From: Promethearchaeota archaeon Loki_b32
GTDB taxonomy: Archaea; Asgardarchaeota; Lokiarchaeia; Sigyniarchaeales; SOKP01
Assembly (NCBI GenBank): GCA_005223125.1
Contig: NJBH01000002.1
Coordinates: 1 to 64,000, forward strand
Direction: 5' to 3'
Length of the DNA stretch: 64,000 bases
Part shown: piece after piece, positions 9,838-45,995 of the stretch
Layout: every line of letters begins with the position of its first letter
Numbering within the stretch: position 1 is the first letter of the stretch
Made by a program: the position numbers and the translations under genes
The notes under the pieces: generated by a model
What the model was told of the DNA's origin: nothing
The model's input: only the letters and a program-made list of their open reading frames with translations
The model's database searches: none

Positions 9838-10299
9838 ATGAGCATTAGTATTGATACAAAAAGTTTCGATAATATTCTCAGTAAAATTATAAAGAGCGAA
9901 AGCGGTATCAAAAAAGTAATTTTGGTTGATAGAACGGGATTAACCATTGCTAGTGTTTCGAAATTTTCTTATTTCCCCGCCGATGTGGATGGTATTGGGG
10001 CGATTGCCAGTGCAGTATTCTGCGCTAGCGAGGAACAGGGTAAGAATCTAGAACTTGGAAACTTAGAGATTGTAACTTCAGAATTTATGGGAGGCAAAAT
10101 ATTTGCATCAAGTTGTGGACCTAAAGGAGTTCTCACTCTCATCTCAGATCCAGACATCAACATTGGTTTAATTAGGCTTATTTTGAAACGTTCAGGAGAC
10201 GAATTAAAGGACATACTAGATGAATTTTTATCAGAAACCATGGATATTATGGATAGTGGCTTAGATCTGTCTGATCTTGACTCTCTCACACCTGATTAA
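9838..10299 (+). CDS. Roadblock/LC7 domain protein
   Basis: A 153-residue protein with one Roadblock/LC7 domain (about residues 5-125): an initial helix (FDNILSKIIKS), the G-I-K-K-V-I-L-V-D-R-T-G-L-T-I-A strand-turn-strand, a central helix (AIASAVFCASEEQGK), paired strands with a conserved GP (SSCGPKGVLTLIS), and a final helix. An Asp/Ser-rich tail follows. In Asgard archaea such proteins are numerous and are thought to act as small-GTPase regulators or scaffolds, like bacterial MglB and eukaryotic dynein light chain 7. It lies alone, between a small cysteine-rich gene and an MBL hydrolase. Confidence 0.85.
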   Translation: MSISIDTKSFDNILSKIIKSESGIKKVILVDRTGLTIASVSKFSYFPADVDGIGAIASAVFCASEEQGKNLELGNLEIVTSEFMGGKIFASSCGPKGVLTLISDPDINIGLIRLILKRSGDELKDILDEFLSETMDIMDSGLDLSDLDSLTPD

Positions 10300-30392: not shown

Positions 30393-30779
30393 TTATAGTG
30401 GCTTTTGTTCTAAAGCATCCTTTATTTCATTTTTAAAATTAGAAAAAGCGCCAATTTGACCTTTGAAATTAACCAATTTATCACTATAAAGCTTAATGAA
30501 CTTCTCAGAGATTTTTTTCAATTCTTTATTTACTTTTTTCTGATTGTATTTTTTAGAAGAGTTTGCCACAAAAATTAACCCACTTGTCTTTATTATAGTG
30601 AATCTTGAATTTTCTAATTCAAAATTTGACATACCTCCTTCAGCTAACTGTTCAGCAAACATATTTAAGGCACTCATCATCGCTCCAAAAAGTTGAGGAG
30701 AAACTACGTTATCAAACTCTCTATGAAAAATTACAATTCCTGATCTCTCAACAATCCAAATATCTTGAAGTATTTTCAC
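30393..30779 (-). CDS. Longin-like domain protein
   Basis: A 128-residue single-domain protein. It begins with a strand pair and turn (DIWIVERSGIVIFHREF), then a long helix (SPQLFGAMMSALNMFAEQLA), three strands (MSNFELENSRFTIIKTSGLI, FVANSS) and two C-terminal helices (NKELKKISEKFIKLYSDKLV). This beta2-alpha-beta3-alpha2 order is the longin fold, related to Roadblock. The opening 'I.I..RSGI.IF...F' and the final helices match the C-terminal domains of the membrane proteins at 43584-44684 and 44877-45995. Asgard longins are proposed partners of Ras-like GTPases; the partner here is unknown. Confidence 0.7.
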   Translation of the reverse strand: MKILQDIWIVERSGIVIFHREFDNVVSPQLFGAMMSALNMFAEQLAEGGMSNFELENSRFTIIKTSGLIFVANSSKKYNQKKVNKELKKISEKFIKLYSDKLVNFKGQIGAFSNFKNEIKDALEQKPL

Positions 30780-39125: not shown

Positions 39126-39989
39126 TTATTCACAATCTTCTTCGGCTTGTTGGAGATTAATCTTTATAAAACCTACTTCCTGAAGATTCCTTTGTTCAGA
39201 TTTCACTGATCTATTTACTTGATGTAAATGTTTCATGGCATTATTTTTTCCTTCTTTGATATTTTCAATTAGTTCTTCTTTATTAAAACCACCAGAAATA
39301 ACAAGAGCCGTTTGAAAAGAATGATCGGGTTCTAAAGTCATAAATTCAATTTGCATAGCAGATAATATTTCTCCTTGTCCTTTATATATAGTATTTGAAA
39401 GGTTCATAGTCTTTTTATCGATTTTGAAATCTTTTGTTAGACATGTCTCGTAGTTTGTTGATTTTGATAGGGGAGAAAATCCACCATATAAACCCGTATT
39501 ATCATATTGGTAAATAACGTCATTTTCTTCATCATAGCCGGATAGATCATTATCAAAACCCGCAAGTCCATTTATATCAAAATCAAAAACAAAATACATT
39601 GAAAAATCTTTTAAGGCAAAATCTGATATGTTTTTAATTGTGAAAAAAGTATTAATATAAGGAATATGAGGTGCATTAAAGATGTCTTTGTACACACGAA
39701 CAAATTGCTTCTTTTCTAATGGAATCAATTTTGAATTTTGTTCTTGAGATAGTTTCTTAAGATACTCTGTAATATTAAAATCTAAAGTAATTCTACTAAT
39801 AGCAGTCCCCGTACGAGTATTTACCATATTGTATATCGGTGTTGGCTCGATATTTTTTAAAATAACTGGAATTGTTCCAATTTTTTTTCCTTCTAGTGTA
39901 AAGCTAAACCAAGGACCTGTTAATTCTTGTTCACTAAGATATATAAGATACTTTCCCATGTATGTCAGTTCTTTAATTGAAAATCCCAT
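39126..39989 (-). CDS. Beta-rich protein of unknown function
   Basis: A 287-residue soluble protein composed mainly of predicted strands, with acidic loops (VFDFDINGLAGFDNDLSGYD...). The run 'FFTIKNISDFALKDFSMYFV' followed by alternating strands resembles a carbohydrate-active beta-supersandwich such as the N-terminal domain of GH15-like enzymes. No catalytic domain follows, so this is only a shape resemblance. The last 50 residues are a charged helix. No signal peptide is present. Confidence 0.5.
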   Translation of the reverse strand: MGFSIKELTYMGKYLIYLSEQELTGPWFSFTLEGKKIGTIPVILKNIEPTPIYNMVNTRTGTAISRITLDFNITEYLKKLSQEQNSKLIPLEKKQFVRVYKDIFNAPHIPYINTFFTIKNISDFALKDFSMYFVFDFDINGLAGFDNDLSGYDEENDVIYQYDNTGLYGGFSPLSKSTNYETCLTKDFKIDKKTMNLSNTIYKGQGEILSAMQIEFMTLEPDHSFQTALVISGGFNKEELIENIKEGKNNAMKHLHQVNRSVKSEQRNLQEVGFIKINLQQAEEDCE

Positions 39990-41457: not shown

Positions 41458-43368
41458 CTATCTATTTAAAGTGTTCATATAATTCAAAATATACTTCCGA
41501 TTACTTTCTGAAATCTTATAAAGATTAAAGACTAATGTATCTATTTGTTTCTGGAGGTTCTCCAATTCACCAATGTTTTCTAAAATTGTCACCACCATTT
41601 CTATTATTTTTTTAGCTTTTTGCTTTTCCTTATCATTAATTGGTATTTTAATGGGAAAATCTTTAATTTTTTCAATCAAAATTCTTGGAAATAACTTTTT
41701 ATATGTACCAAATGATTTTATGAAAAAATAAGATAACAACATTGAATTTATTATTCCCAATAGGTAAAAATGATTGAATTCAGAGATATGTGACTGCTTG
41801 ATTTTTAAATTATAAAAAGATTGAGAAGTTAAAGATAAATTTTTTTCATATGTCGCACAAATTTTACTATTTTGGCTTAATTGTCTAATTACTATTCGAT
41901 CTTCATAGAGACTAAACTTTTTATAATTTATTCCAACTTTGGATATATCGATATACTTATATTGAGTTTTCTGATATCGTCTAATTGAGTATAAATATAA
42001 TTTGAAATTTTCTTTTAGGGCATCTTCAGGAAGGGTGTCGTAAATTATTTTTTCAATCTTTTGCTTATTTAACTGAGCATCACATACACGGCATTTTAAA
42101 AGTTTTTTAGGAACTGGTGTAAATTTTTTACAATTCTCACAATAAATTATCTCTCCTGTTTTAGTTAACTCAACTCCTCTACTTAAAATAAATTTGAATT
42201 CAGGATTATTATCTATATCCTTTAATCTAATGAAATTTTCGGTTAAGTGCTTTATTATAGAGATGTCAGTCTTATTTAAGTGGATTAGAAATTGATAGTT
42301 CCATTTTTCAATTATATCTTGTGGGATGGCCATTTCTTGATTTAATGTTTTTAAATTAATTTGATTCTCAATCCTCTCTAATTTATTAAATTCCTTTTCC
42401 AAAATTATGATTATATTCGAAACAATAGGATCATTAAATTTTGGACCCGTATGGTAAATCTCTTTAATTTTTGTTGAATTATATATATATTTCCTGATGA
42501 CTGATCGATTTGATAAAGCTAAAAGGGAGTCAGGGACAATATAACCCAAAATACCATGGTTTTTTAGAATTCTTATTCCGAGTTCTATAAAAATCTGATA
42601 ATAATCATATTGGCCATCGTTTGTCTTAAAATCGAGACTTTCAATTAATTTTCTTTGATCTTGAGGAATATCTCTAATAAATAGATAAGGAGGATTTCCT
42701 ACAACATAATTATACTTTACCGAATAGTCTATCGTTAAAGCATTAAAATTCTTGATATTAAATTGAGGTAATTGATAATTGGATTCTGATTTTCTTATTA
42801 ACTTTAAAATCTCAAAAATAACAAAATAAATATTAATTTGGCATAAAATACAGGCATTTTGATTAACATCTACTCCAACGATATTTTCATTAACTTTTGA
42901 AATTATAGCTTTAGCTTCATTTGTCGTCAATTGAGAAATTTCCTTTTTTCCATAAATTTCGAGACATCTTATTATAAGGATTCTAATTGCTTGTATAATA
43001 AAGCTCCCAGAACCGCAACTAATATCAATAATTGTTTTATCCTCTATATTGTTAGAACTATTATAGCCAATTACGCTTAAAATATAATTTACTATCGAAA
43101 TTGGAGTATAAAATTCACCCATTTTCTTTTTTTCTTTATGACTTAAAGTGTTTTCATATAATTTACTAAAAATATCATACTCTAGCCTATTTAAATTGTC
43201 ATTTACTCTGGTTGTTTCTTTAACTTTGATATTCTCTAATGAAATGAGATTTTCAAGCAATTTATTTAAAATAAGTTGGTTAGCCTGAGTAGTAGAACTA
43301 TCTTTATAGAAAAAATTTAAACTTTCAATGATTTTTTCTTTTTTTAGATATTTAATGAAATCTTGCAT
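41458..43368 (-). CDS. Eco57I/TaqI-like adenine DNA methyltransferase
   Basis: A 636-residue gamma-class N6-adenine methyltransferase. It contains GEFYTPISIVNYIL, the AdoMet motif IIDISCGSGSFIIQAIRI, GVDVNQNACIL, and motif IV YVVGNPPYLFIRDI (N-P-P-Y). A zinc ribbon (about residues 400-430, CENCKKFTPVP...CRVCDAQL) sits inside the TaqI-like specificity half. No PD-(D/E)xK nuclease motif is seen in the 90 residues before the methylase core, unlike type IIG enzymes. It therefore seems to methylate only, or to work with a nuclease encoded elsewhere. Confidence 0.8.
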   Translation of the reverse strand: MQDFIKYLKKEKIIESLNFFYKDSSTTQANQLILNKLLENLISLENIKVKETTRVNDNLNRLEYDIFSKLYENTLSHKEKKKMGEFYTPISIVNYILSVIGYNSSNNIEDKTIIDISCGSGSFIIQAIRILIIRCLEIYGKKEISQLTTNEAKAIISKVNENIVGVDVNQNACILCQINIYFVIFEILKLIRKSESNYQLPQFNIKNFNALTIDYSVKYNYVVGNPPYLFIRDIPQDQRKLIESLDFKTNDGQYDYYQIFIELGIRILKNHGILGYIVPDSLLALSNRSVIRKYIYNSTKIKEIYHTGPKFNDPIVSNIIIILEKEFNKLERIENQINLKTLNQEMAIPQDIIEKWNYQFLIHLNKTDISIIKHLTENFIRLKDIDNNPEFKFILSRGVELTKTGEIIYCENCKKFTPVPKKLLKCRVCDAQLNKQKIEKIIYDTLPEDALKENFKLYLYSIRRYQKTQYKYIDISKVGINYKKFSLYEDRIVIRQLSQNSKICATYEKNLSLTSQSFYNLKIKQSHISEFNHFYLLGIINSMLLSYFFIKSFGTYKKLFPRILIEKIKDFPIKIPINDKEKQKAKKIIEMVVTILENIGELENLQKQIDTLVFNLYKISESNRKYILNYMNTLNR

Positions 43369-43583: not shown

Positions 43584-44684
43584 ATGATTATAAATATCCT
43601 TCTGATTATAGCTTCAGTAATGATATCTATTATTGGAATTTTTTACGTTTATCTCAATCGGGAGAATTTGGGTGATACTCTATCCATAATTTTAAATATA
43701 ATCTTATTATTAATTCTGGGTATTTTTTTCCTCTCGTCATTTCTCTTATCCACAGATGTAAATTTAAATGAAGATGTTGTGTTAATTTTATGGTATATCT
43801 CAATTATTTTTTGGGTGTTTTCTATAAGTATATTGAGTGTTATTCAAAAATTTATCATTAAATTTGAAGAAAAAACTATACTTATAACAATCTTTTATTC
43901 ACTTATAATTGGAATAATTCTGGGTTTGAGTTTTCTTTCCAATTCATTTACAATAAATTTGAAGAGTGATAGTTATGAATTTATATTCCAGAATTTATTA
44001 TTACTGTACCTTCTATTAAGTTATAATATTATTATAATAATTGTAATGTGTTATAATCTCATAAGATATTTCATGAGGCTTCGTGATAGTACCTCTCAAA
44101 AAATAATAAGCATACTCACCTTTCAATTTTGTTTTCTTATTATTTTATATTCCATTTATATTATTACTCAAAATATCACTTTCAGATATCTTTATGCAGT
44201 TTTTTATCTTATAGGCGCAATTTTAGCAAGTTATTTTATAATTACTAAACCATTTCTATTTATTGAACTTACCAATAAAATTCATGACTTCATTATCTTC
44301 CATAGAAGTGGAATTCTTTTGTATTCATATAATTTCGAAACTGGACAAGAAACTGATGAATCTCTCTTAAAAGGATCAATTCTTATTGGGATTAATCACA
44401 TTCTTTCTAATTTTATTGATAAAAAAGATCAGTTAAATCTTATTAAAATGAAGAATAGGGATATTATTCTTGAATATGACAATACTCATGGTTATGCACT
44501 TTTATTAACTGCTAATCATAAAAACAAATTTATAGATAAAGCAGTCAATAGCTTTATGACAAAATTTACTTCATTAAATGGAGAAAAATTGAAAAATTTA
44601 AATGGGTTAATTGATGTTTCAGAATTTAGGAATGCAAAGGAAATTATTATAGAAAATTTTGAACCTTTTATTAAAAAAAAATAA
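43584..44684 (+). CDS. Seven-span membrane protein with C-terminal longin-like domain (copy 1)
   Basis: A 366-residue protein. About seven hydrophobic spans fill residues 1-225 (IINILLIIASVMISIIGIFY; IILNIILLLILGIFFL; VLILWYISIIFWVFSISIL; ILITIFYSLIIGIILG; and three more). Residues 230-366 form a soluble domain: strands IHDFIIFHRSGILLYSYNF, a long helix (SILIGINHILSNFID), strands (RDIILEYDNTHGYALLLTAN) and C-terminal helices. This order fits the longin fold and resembles the lone longin at 30393-30779. An odd number of spans puts the longin in the cytosol with the N-terminus outside, like sensor 7TM domains of histidine kinases. The neighbour at 44877 is a paralog. Function unknown. Confidence 0.75.
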   Translation: MIINILLIIASVMISIIGIFYVYLNRENLGDTLSIILNIILLLILGIFFLSSFLLSTDVNLNEDVVLILWYISIIFWVFSISILSVIQKFIIKFEEKTILITIFYSLIIGIILGLSFLSNSFTINLKSDSYEFIFQNLLLLYLLLSYNIIIIIVMCYNLIRYFMRLRDSTSQKIISILTFQFCFLIILYSIYIITQNITFRYLYAVFYLIGAILASYFIITKPFLFIELTNKIHDFIIFHRSGILLYSYNFETGQETDESLLKGSILIGINHILSNFIDKKDQLNLIKMKNRDIILEYDNTHGYALLLTANHKNKFIDKAVNSFMTKFTSLNGEKLKNLNGLIDVSEFRNAKEIIIENFEPFIKKK

Positions 44685-44876
44685 AGTATTTAAAAAGAAA
44701 ACATCAATGATAATTAGATTTTAGTTTCGTTGATTAAATCTGCTTTTTTGACACTTAATTAAAATAAAAAAAATTATATTTATGACCATATGTTCATATT
44801 CAATAAGGCTAATATATTTTTAATGAAATCACATAAATTATAGAATAAAATAAAGTACTTTTATTAAATTCAAATT

Positions 44877-45995
44877 ATGGCGGAGACTCTATTAATAGCA
44901 CCAATAATAATTGGATATATTTTCATTTTATGTGTAAGTGTTTATACCTTAACTTCTATATTAATTCACCATCAAAAGTATGGAGTAAAATTAACTGTAA
45001 TTCTAAATTTCTTAGCGATTTTTAATGCTGTTATGATTTATTCAACAATTTACTTCATTTCTGTCATCTTCTTCTATACTGAAGGTACTAACATTCTATT
45101 ATGGAAATTTTCTCTTATTTCTGGTTTTATTGGCTTAATTCTGATCTCTTTAATTTATGCTTTCTTAAAGGAATTTAAGAAAGTTCCATATTTCCCCTTT
45201 TTGTACTTCATGATCCTTTTTGGATTATTAATTGGTTCTTTTTTTATGCCTAATTCGGTCCAAGTTTCCATAATTTCAGATATTTCAATAATAAATTATA
45301 CATTTAATTTTATGACAGGGTTGATTATTAGCATTTTTCAATCTTCTTTTGTTATCTATTTTTTCTTCCTTTGTTACAATATATATAAAAAGGCAAGGGA
45401 TAAAGCAGCTCTGAAAGGTTTAATTATTAATTCCTTTATATTAGCATTTCCTATTTTAATGTACGTTTTTTATATTGCGACCCAAGTGTGGGTTTTTAGA
45501 GAATTACATATTTTTTCTTTATGGATTAATATCACATCAATGTGCTTCATAATAGTAAAGAAACCTGAGATTTTTTCTGAATTGACAAATAAAATATATT
45601 ATATCAACATTTACCATAAATCAGGAATATTACTGTTTTCTTACAAATTTAAAACTTCTAATAATGAGGTTGATTCAACTATATGGGGAAATATACTTAT
45701 TGGAATTAACCATATTCTCTCTGAATTTGTAGATACAAAAGACCAAATTGAAGTTCTTCAAACTGAAAATTCAGATATCATAGTGAATTACGATAACTTT
45801 GGATTTGCTGTAGTTTTAATAACCAATCATAAAAATGCGATTTTGAAAAAATTAATGGATAATTTTGCCAAAGAATTTCGTGGTAAGTATAAAAACGAAT
45901 TAACTGAAATCCAAGATCTTAATAAATTAATTAATGTCTCAGAATTCAAAGAAACAAAAGATATTATAGAAAAAAATTTCCAAATATATCTATGA
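44877..45995 (+). CDS. Seven-span membrane protein with C-terminal longin-like domain (copy 2)
   Basis: A 372-residue paralog of the preceding gene with the same architecture: about seven spans over residues 1-230 (LIAPIIIGYIFILCVSVYTL; LTVILNFLAIFNAVMIY; and others), then a cytosolic domain. Shared blocks are ELTNKIxxxxIxHxSGILLxSYxF, ILIGINHILS, VSEF..xK+II+.NF, all at equal spacing. The membrane halves have diverged more than the soluble halves, as expected if the membrane part senses different things while the longin part engages a common partner. The two genes are 190 nt apart, so they are not clearly one transcript. Confidence 0.75.
   Translation: MAETLLIAPIIIGYIFILCVSVYTLTSILIHHQKYGVKLTVILNFLAIFNAVMIYSTIYFISVIFFYTEGTNILLWKFSLISGFIGLILISLIYAFLKEFKKVPYFPFLYFMILFGLLIGSFFMPNSVQVSIISDISIINYTFNFMTGLIISIFQSSFVIYFFFLCYNIYKKARDKAALKGLIINSFILAFPILMYVFYIATQVWVFRELHIFSLWINITSMCFIIVKKPEIFSELTNKIYYINIYHKSGILLFSYKFKTSNNEVDSTIWGNILIGINHILSEFVDTKDQIEVLQTENSDIIVNYDNFGFAVVLITNHKNAILKKLMDNFAKEFRGKYKNELTEIQDLNKLINVSEFKETKDIIEKNFQIYL

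Follow-up and report, generated by a model that had tools for sequence, protein, structure and literature searches.

Tandem seven-helix membrane proteins with cytosolic longin-type domains in a Lokiarchaeal genome: a candidate receptor pair

Two adjacent Lokiarchaeal genes, here called A and B, each encode a bundle of seven membrane helices followed by a cytosolic domain of the longin fold. They lie in a 64,000-nucleotide stretch of DNA, which we call the window in what follows, from a 4.1 Mb genome whose nearest relatives are without exception Lokiarchaeota MAGs; all relatives named below are likewise MAGs. Lokiarchaea are archaeal relatives of eukaryotes. Asgard archaea encode dozens of eukaryote-like small GTPases, for which we know of no upstream signals. 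We see an even chance that the two proteins work together as a receptor, relaying a signal from outside the cell to a small GTPase by way of a longin dimer. The parts are of known kinds; the combination of a seven-helix sensor with a longin output appears to be new.

Both open reading frames were confirmed where the sequence-only reading had placed them (Table 1). B lies downstream of A in tandem, 192 bp away on the same strand. The two proteins, which are paralogues, share 34% identity across 344 alignment columns (E=3e-55); the figure is 47% for the longin part and 20% for the membrane part. Searches of both against Pfam and NCBIfam gave no usable match. The pair occurs together in 32 of the 37 genomes of its genome family; among the other five, two are without the pair, two have a single copy and one has weak fragments only. 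For 29 loci both genes were read; in all of them A precedes B, at a spacing of 31-218 bp. In the tree all A proteins form one clade (98/99), all B proteins form another (100/98), and single copies from genus g7 fall outside both; A and B are therefore, as judged from this phylogeny, the products of a single ancient duplication that have been retained jointly. Independent tandem sets of two or three 7TM-longin genes are present in other genomes (L093, L100, L243, L245, L249).

Table 1. Coordinates of the pair, its parts, its neighbours and longin-bearing proteins at other loci (window positions unless a locus is named)
Feature	Location	Strand	Evidence or note
Gene A, 7TM-longin protein, 366 aa	43584..44684	+	ORF, homologues, conservation, tree
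A, seven membrane helices, residues 2-221, N-out/C-in	43587..44246	+	AlphaFold2, charge bias, HisKA_7TM-type profile match
A, beta hairpin, extracellular loop between helices 4 and 5, residues 122-135	43947..43988	+	AlphaFold2
A, cytosolic longin-type domain, residues 228-366	44265..44681	+	AlphaFold2, Foldseek, profile searches
Gene B, paralogous 7TM-longin protein, 372 aa	44877..45995	+	ORF, homologues, conservation, tree
B, seven membrane helices, residues 2-228, N-out/C-in	44880..45560	+	AlphaFold2 (pLDDT 93.9), charge bias, fold search
B, beta hairpin, extracellular loop between helices 4 and 5, residues 128-143	45258..45305	+	AlphaFold2
B, cytosolic longin-type domain, residues 233-372	45573..45992	+	Identity to A longin, profile matches
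Adenine-type DNA methyltransferase, divergent from gene A	41458..43368	-	Adjoins A in relatives
Roadblock-Ras-like GTPase fusion, 327 aa	40150..41133	-	Domain models; linkage in relatives
Transporter-like 10-12-span proteins ending in longin, MFS type and ~740-aa type	L154 438-3936; L155 591-2792; L187; L188; L189; L190		
Giant protein, 4940 aa, one TM near the C-terminus, then longin	L101 815-15634		
Protein of 1432 aa with ~seven PAS domains, HisKA-like segment and C-terminal longin	L106 1375-5670		
Apparent operon of small wHTH/PCI-like protein, small GTPase and single-pass receptor-longin	L262 3766-7295		Contig C36

AlphaFold2, given 41 homologues, models A as seven helices with a hairpin between TM4 and TM5, followed by the C-terminal domain (pLDDT 82, pTM 0.76). 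The membrane part of B modelled alone has seven helices and the same hairpin (pLDDT 93.9, pTM 0.90), so that the count of about seven spans made for both genes by the sequence-only reading is borne out. Loops assigned to the inside carry on average 9.1 Lys/Arg residues in A, versus 1.1 outside (same sign in 29/29 homologues), and 10.1 in B, versus 0.8 outside (30/30). Since this positive-inside bias holds in every homologue, the C-terminal domain is placed in the cytosol and not outside the cell, where it would have been hard to reconcile with the original proposal. That proposal also held the soluble part to be better conserved than the membrane part, as is found in both proteins (A, 3.27 versus 2.39 bits per column; B, 3.29 versus 2.55). 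Within the bundle the outer half is more conserved than the inner half (A, 2.54 versus 2.24 bits; B, 2.67 versus 2.38), and the conserved polar and aromatic positions fall mostly in the outer half (S56, W70, S73 and Y189 in A; S62, N72, W76, K77 and R208 in B). Conservation of such S, W, N, K, Y and R residues fits a putative ligand site that would face outward.

Profile comparison ties the bundle to HisKA_7TM in three steps: the window 7TM matches the Asgard-wide 7TM-longin bundles (prob 92, 222 columns), these match HisKA_7TM (prob 92, 206 columns), and the window 7TM matches HisKA_7TM directly (prob 64, 205 columns). All three matches are colinear and near full length; reversed-profile and transporter controls gave prob 3.4 or less, the hhalign P-values applying to single comparisons. 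These profiles identify the membrane part as distantly related to HisKA_7TM, a sensor domain of prokaryotes. One member group matches 7TMR-DISM_7TM at E=3.6e-5, below the cut-off; A and B have no Pfam match to 7TMR-DISM or to PF16927, and PF16927 gave none elsewhere in the window's genome either. Cytosolic histidine-kinase domains, sought in A and B with domain models and AlphaFold2, were not found.

In a fold search of the B bundle, the top 50 PDB matches were all GPCRs, of several classes, with TM-scores up to 0.64 by query length and none at E<=0.001. A sequence search for a GPCR relation found nothing significant (best SSTR1, E=8.2), and the DRY and NPxxY motifs are absent from A and B. 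The PDB is rich in GPCRs; for this reason, and because sequence similarity is lacking, we read the fold likeness as resemblance and reject GPCR ancestry. A layout like that of a GPCR but built from other parts, as first described, is thus a fair characterization, and homology to a sensory 7TM domain together with the N-out/C-in topology upholds the receptor-like architecture.

The C-terminal domain of the A model has the strand and helix order β-β-α-β-β-β-α-α, which is the longin order, with no helix ahead of β1. Foldseek matched it to AP-2 sigma (E=1.1e-3, prob 1.00, TM by target 0.58), and further to AP-3 mu, COPI zeta, SRP-receptor alpha, TRAPP and CPLANE subunits. When a profile of 29 homologous domains was searched against 177,635 PDB sequences, the top three matches were TRAPPC1 and Trs23 sequences (E=0.025-0.061), aligned in register at the β1-β2 hairpin. 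Together these results support the longin-like domain of the sequence-only reading, and an unrelated fold did not emerge. Pfam matches among the 29 members were weak (Intu_longin_1 in 9/29, Sybindin in 4/29, Fuz_longin_1 in 2/29); the best had E=0.003, and those listed with bit scores were below the curated cut-offs, so we assign the domain to the longin fold but to no named longin family. It looks like a distant longin branch without a Pfam model of its own. Conservation within the domain is strongest in the β1-β2 hairpin and helix α1 (SILIGINHILS). Eukaryotes use longin modules for small-GTPase control; longins are also present, with other roles, in SNAREs, coats and the SRP receptor. The Roadblock fold differs from the longin fold in having a helix before β1 (PMC10933270). 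Roadblock/LC7 identity was considered for the domain and rejected, as that helix is missing and Robl_LC7 scores are poor (1/29 members, E=0.007).

We surveyed the longin module in a phylum sample of 119 Asgard genomes, with a profile seeded from matches found with a window protein. It matched in 119/119 genomes at E<=1e-5 and in 36 places in the window's own genome at E<=0.01, counts in which distant soluble longins may be under-represented owing to the seeding. Span counts in the survey are from hydropathy, the two folded models excepted. The fusion first noted in the window thus recurs: 7TM-longins reach up to 11 matches per genome. The module is also attached to MFS-type 12-span proteins in the window genome and its relatives, to a second family of 10-12 spans and ~740 aa that occurs in distant Asgard families, and to single-pass proteins with ectodomains of ~500 to 4,600 residues. 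Soluble longins belong to the family as well. The window itself holds a stand-alone 128-aa longin of this family at 30393-30779 (-), with the match at 30417-30773 (E=1.1e-10).

The presence of one longin on both 12-span and other 10-12-span proteins would suit a reading of the seven-helix part as a transporter, channel or lipid-handling protein, whose state the longin regulates or reports. We think this improbable: in profile comparison the bundle resembles the sensory domain HisKA_7TM, with no match to the MFS or 10-12-span proteins, and an N-out bundle of seven helices with a hairpin between TM4 and TM5 is receptor-like. Another member of the family, the seven-PAS, HisKA-like protein of Table 1, raises the idea that the longin-like domain is a PAS/GAF-like small-molecule pocket that integrates inside and outside signals, with a partner other than a GTPase, for example a kinase; the longin fold does fall within the wider PAS/GAF superfamily (PMC4917890). 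This seems to us a very slim prospect, given that conservation is best in the β1-β2 hairpin and helix α1 and that the Roadblock relatives dimerise by their central helix (PMC10933270).

Several members of the module family are joined to small GTPases or adjoin them. One protein (contig C63) combines longin with an Arf/Ras-like GTPase whose motifs GFGGVGKT, DFAG and NKQD are intact; full-length versions, 56-92% identical to it, are present in relatives belonging to most genera. Two further longin-P-loop proteins are encoded on contig C36. In the window genome, one single-pass receptor-longin is preceded, 190 bp upstream and in the same orientation, by a small GTPase gene (Ras, E=1.5e-11). Among 30 single-pass receptor-longin loci, which are not independent and represent about six lineages, 11 have a small GTPase gene within 1.5 kb, as a rule in the same orientation. 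Single-pass receptor-longins in tandem arrays, unlike the solitary copies, have no GTPase neighbours. Such arrays, of two or three genes, were seen at L293-L303 (genomes G017, G005, G019, G033 and others). In several relatives of the apparent operon in Table 1, one or two GTPases occupy the GTPase position.

The 7TM-longin genes themselves show no enrichment of adjoining GTPases (0/29 and 1/30 loci, against 2/25 for HisKA_7TM controls), so the GTPase step proposed for the pair is one inherited from the module family. Indirect indications, namely the fusions in that family and the neighbours of single-pass members, make it plausible that the 7TM-longins signal to a Ras-like GTPase.

The lack of adjoining GTPases at 7TM-longin genes bears also on a different role for the longin, as a docking or localisation module that holds complexes together or recruits scaffolds without GTPase control, as do the longins of SRP-receptor alpha, AP sigma/mu and SNAREs. 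AP-2 sigma, AP-3 mu, COPI zeta and SRP-receptor alpha being among the top fold matches is in keeping with docking, and so is the great diversity of the membrane proteins that carry the module. However, the sequence profile favours TRAPPC1/Trs23, and the family is fused to GTPases and found beside them in several lineages. Several docking longins, moreover, themselves bind or adjoin Arf or SR-beta GTPases. On balance we regard a pure docking role as rather unlikely, and GTPase control remains the reading we prefer.

A Roadblock-GTPase fusion 2.5 kb from the pair had been put forward as a candidate partner. It is linked to the pair in 31/33 relatives, 2.4-9.2 kb off, on the opposite strand and beyond the methyltransferase. 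Other genes of the region are syntenic as well, and GTPases neighbour 7TM-longin genes no more often than they do controls; the suggestion thus drew little support, and we rejected this GTPase as a dedicated partner. The methyltransferase, which has weak matches to PglX/Alw26I-like models, stands directly beside gene A in all 33 relatives with enough flanking sequence, at a distance of 13-742 bp, a partnership unusually stable for a methyltransferase. Beside the Roadblock-GTPase and on its strand, the protein encoded at 39126-39989 (-) is found in 28/33 relatives with a median identity of 73%; Pfam and NCBIfam gave no match to it. Elsewhere in the window, a Roadblock/LC7 protein at 9838-10299 (+) scores above the Pfam cut-off (match 9883-10143, 41.3 bits).

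We propose that A and B would act as the two subunits of one membrane sensor. Their HisKA_7TM-type sensory bundles, with the conserved pocket region outward, would sense a ligand, and the cytosolic longin would take the position held by a kinase or cyclase in bacterial relatives. The A longin probably dimerises with the B longin, in the manner of TRAPPC1-TRAPPC4 or Mon1-Ccz1, and the arrangement of the two may change when the bundles sense their ligand. The longin platform would then either bring a Ras/Arf-like small GTPase to the membrane or control its nucleotide state; as to direction, it could serve as GEF, GAP or recruiter.

The module, which occurs in all sampled Asgard genomes and is found on sensors, transporters and receptor-like proteins, would be a candidate for the upstream layer leading from the membrane to the GTPases. 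More tentatively, and at slightly less than an even chance by our reckoning, this may amount to a general receptor system across Asgard archaea, in which interchangeable inputs (seven-helix, transporter, giant single-pass) feed one longin module and through it Ras/Arf-like GTPases; it would be a G-protein-coupled signalling layer that arose independently of GPCRs, and a possible source of eukaryotic nutrient-to-GTPase circuits, among them Ragulator-Rag and TRAPP-Rab. An upstream longin layer of this kind would suggest that the longin GTPase regulators of eukaryotes arose from components that were coupled to membrane sensing beforehand. A, B and the module family supply concrete pairs for testing.

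The initial impression that no family of this architecture had been described agrees with the literature searched. The search, which stopped short of preprints and most subscription journals, turned up no account of longin fused to a seven-helix sensor or to a transporter; literature on 7TM receptors in Lokiarchaeota, or on HisKA_7TM with GPCRs, likewise yielded nothing relevant. Asgard longins themselves are on record: 41 were counted in Loki, five of them fused to Arf-like GTPases (PMC4917890), and fusions of longin or Roadblock to GTPases are described in Asgard archaea (PMC10933270). Vps28-C/adaptin-appendage proteins with longin, some also with IG-like domains, have been reported too (PMC10936438). 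The longin-GTPase and Roadblock-GTPase fusions have their domain class in common with the window longins; neither PMC10933270 nor PMC4917890 describes a membrane receptor with longin, and the words 'transmembrane' and 'receptor' are absent from the former.

With HisKA_7TM (PF16927) and 7TMR-DISM proteins A and B share an N-terminal bundle of ~220 residues, seven N-out helices and a cytosolic output domain, but the output is a longin in place of a histidine kinase or cyclase. GPCRs resemble them in the N-out heptahelical bundle and the hairpin between TM4 and TM5, and differ in that the window proteins have their output domain fused and are without GPCR sequence motifs. Longin pairs are established as Rab GEFs, for the TRAPP longin heterodimer (PMC10933270) and for Mon1-Ccz1 (PMC8833172). 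TRAPPC1/TRAPPC4, Mon1-Ccz1 and FUZ-INTU are like A and B in longin order and in being two paralogous longins retained together; these are soluble peripheral complexes, whereas the window longins are each tethered to a seven-helix bundle.
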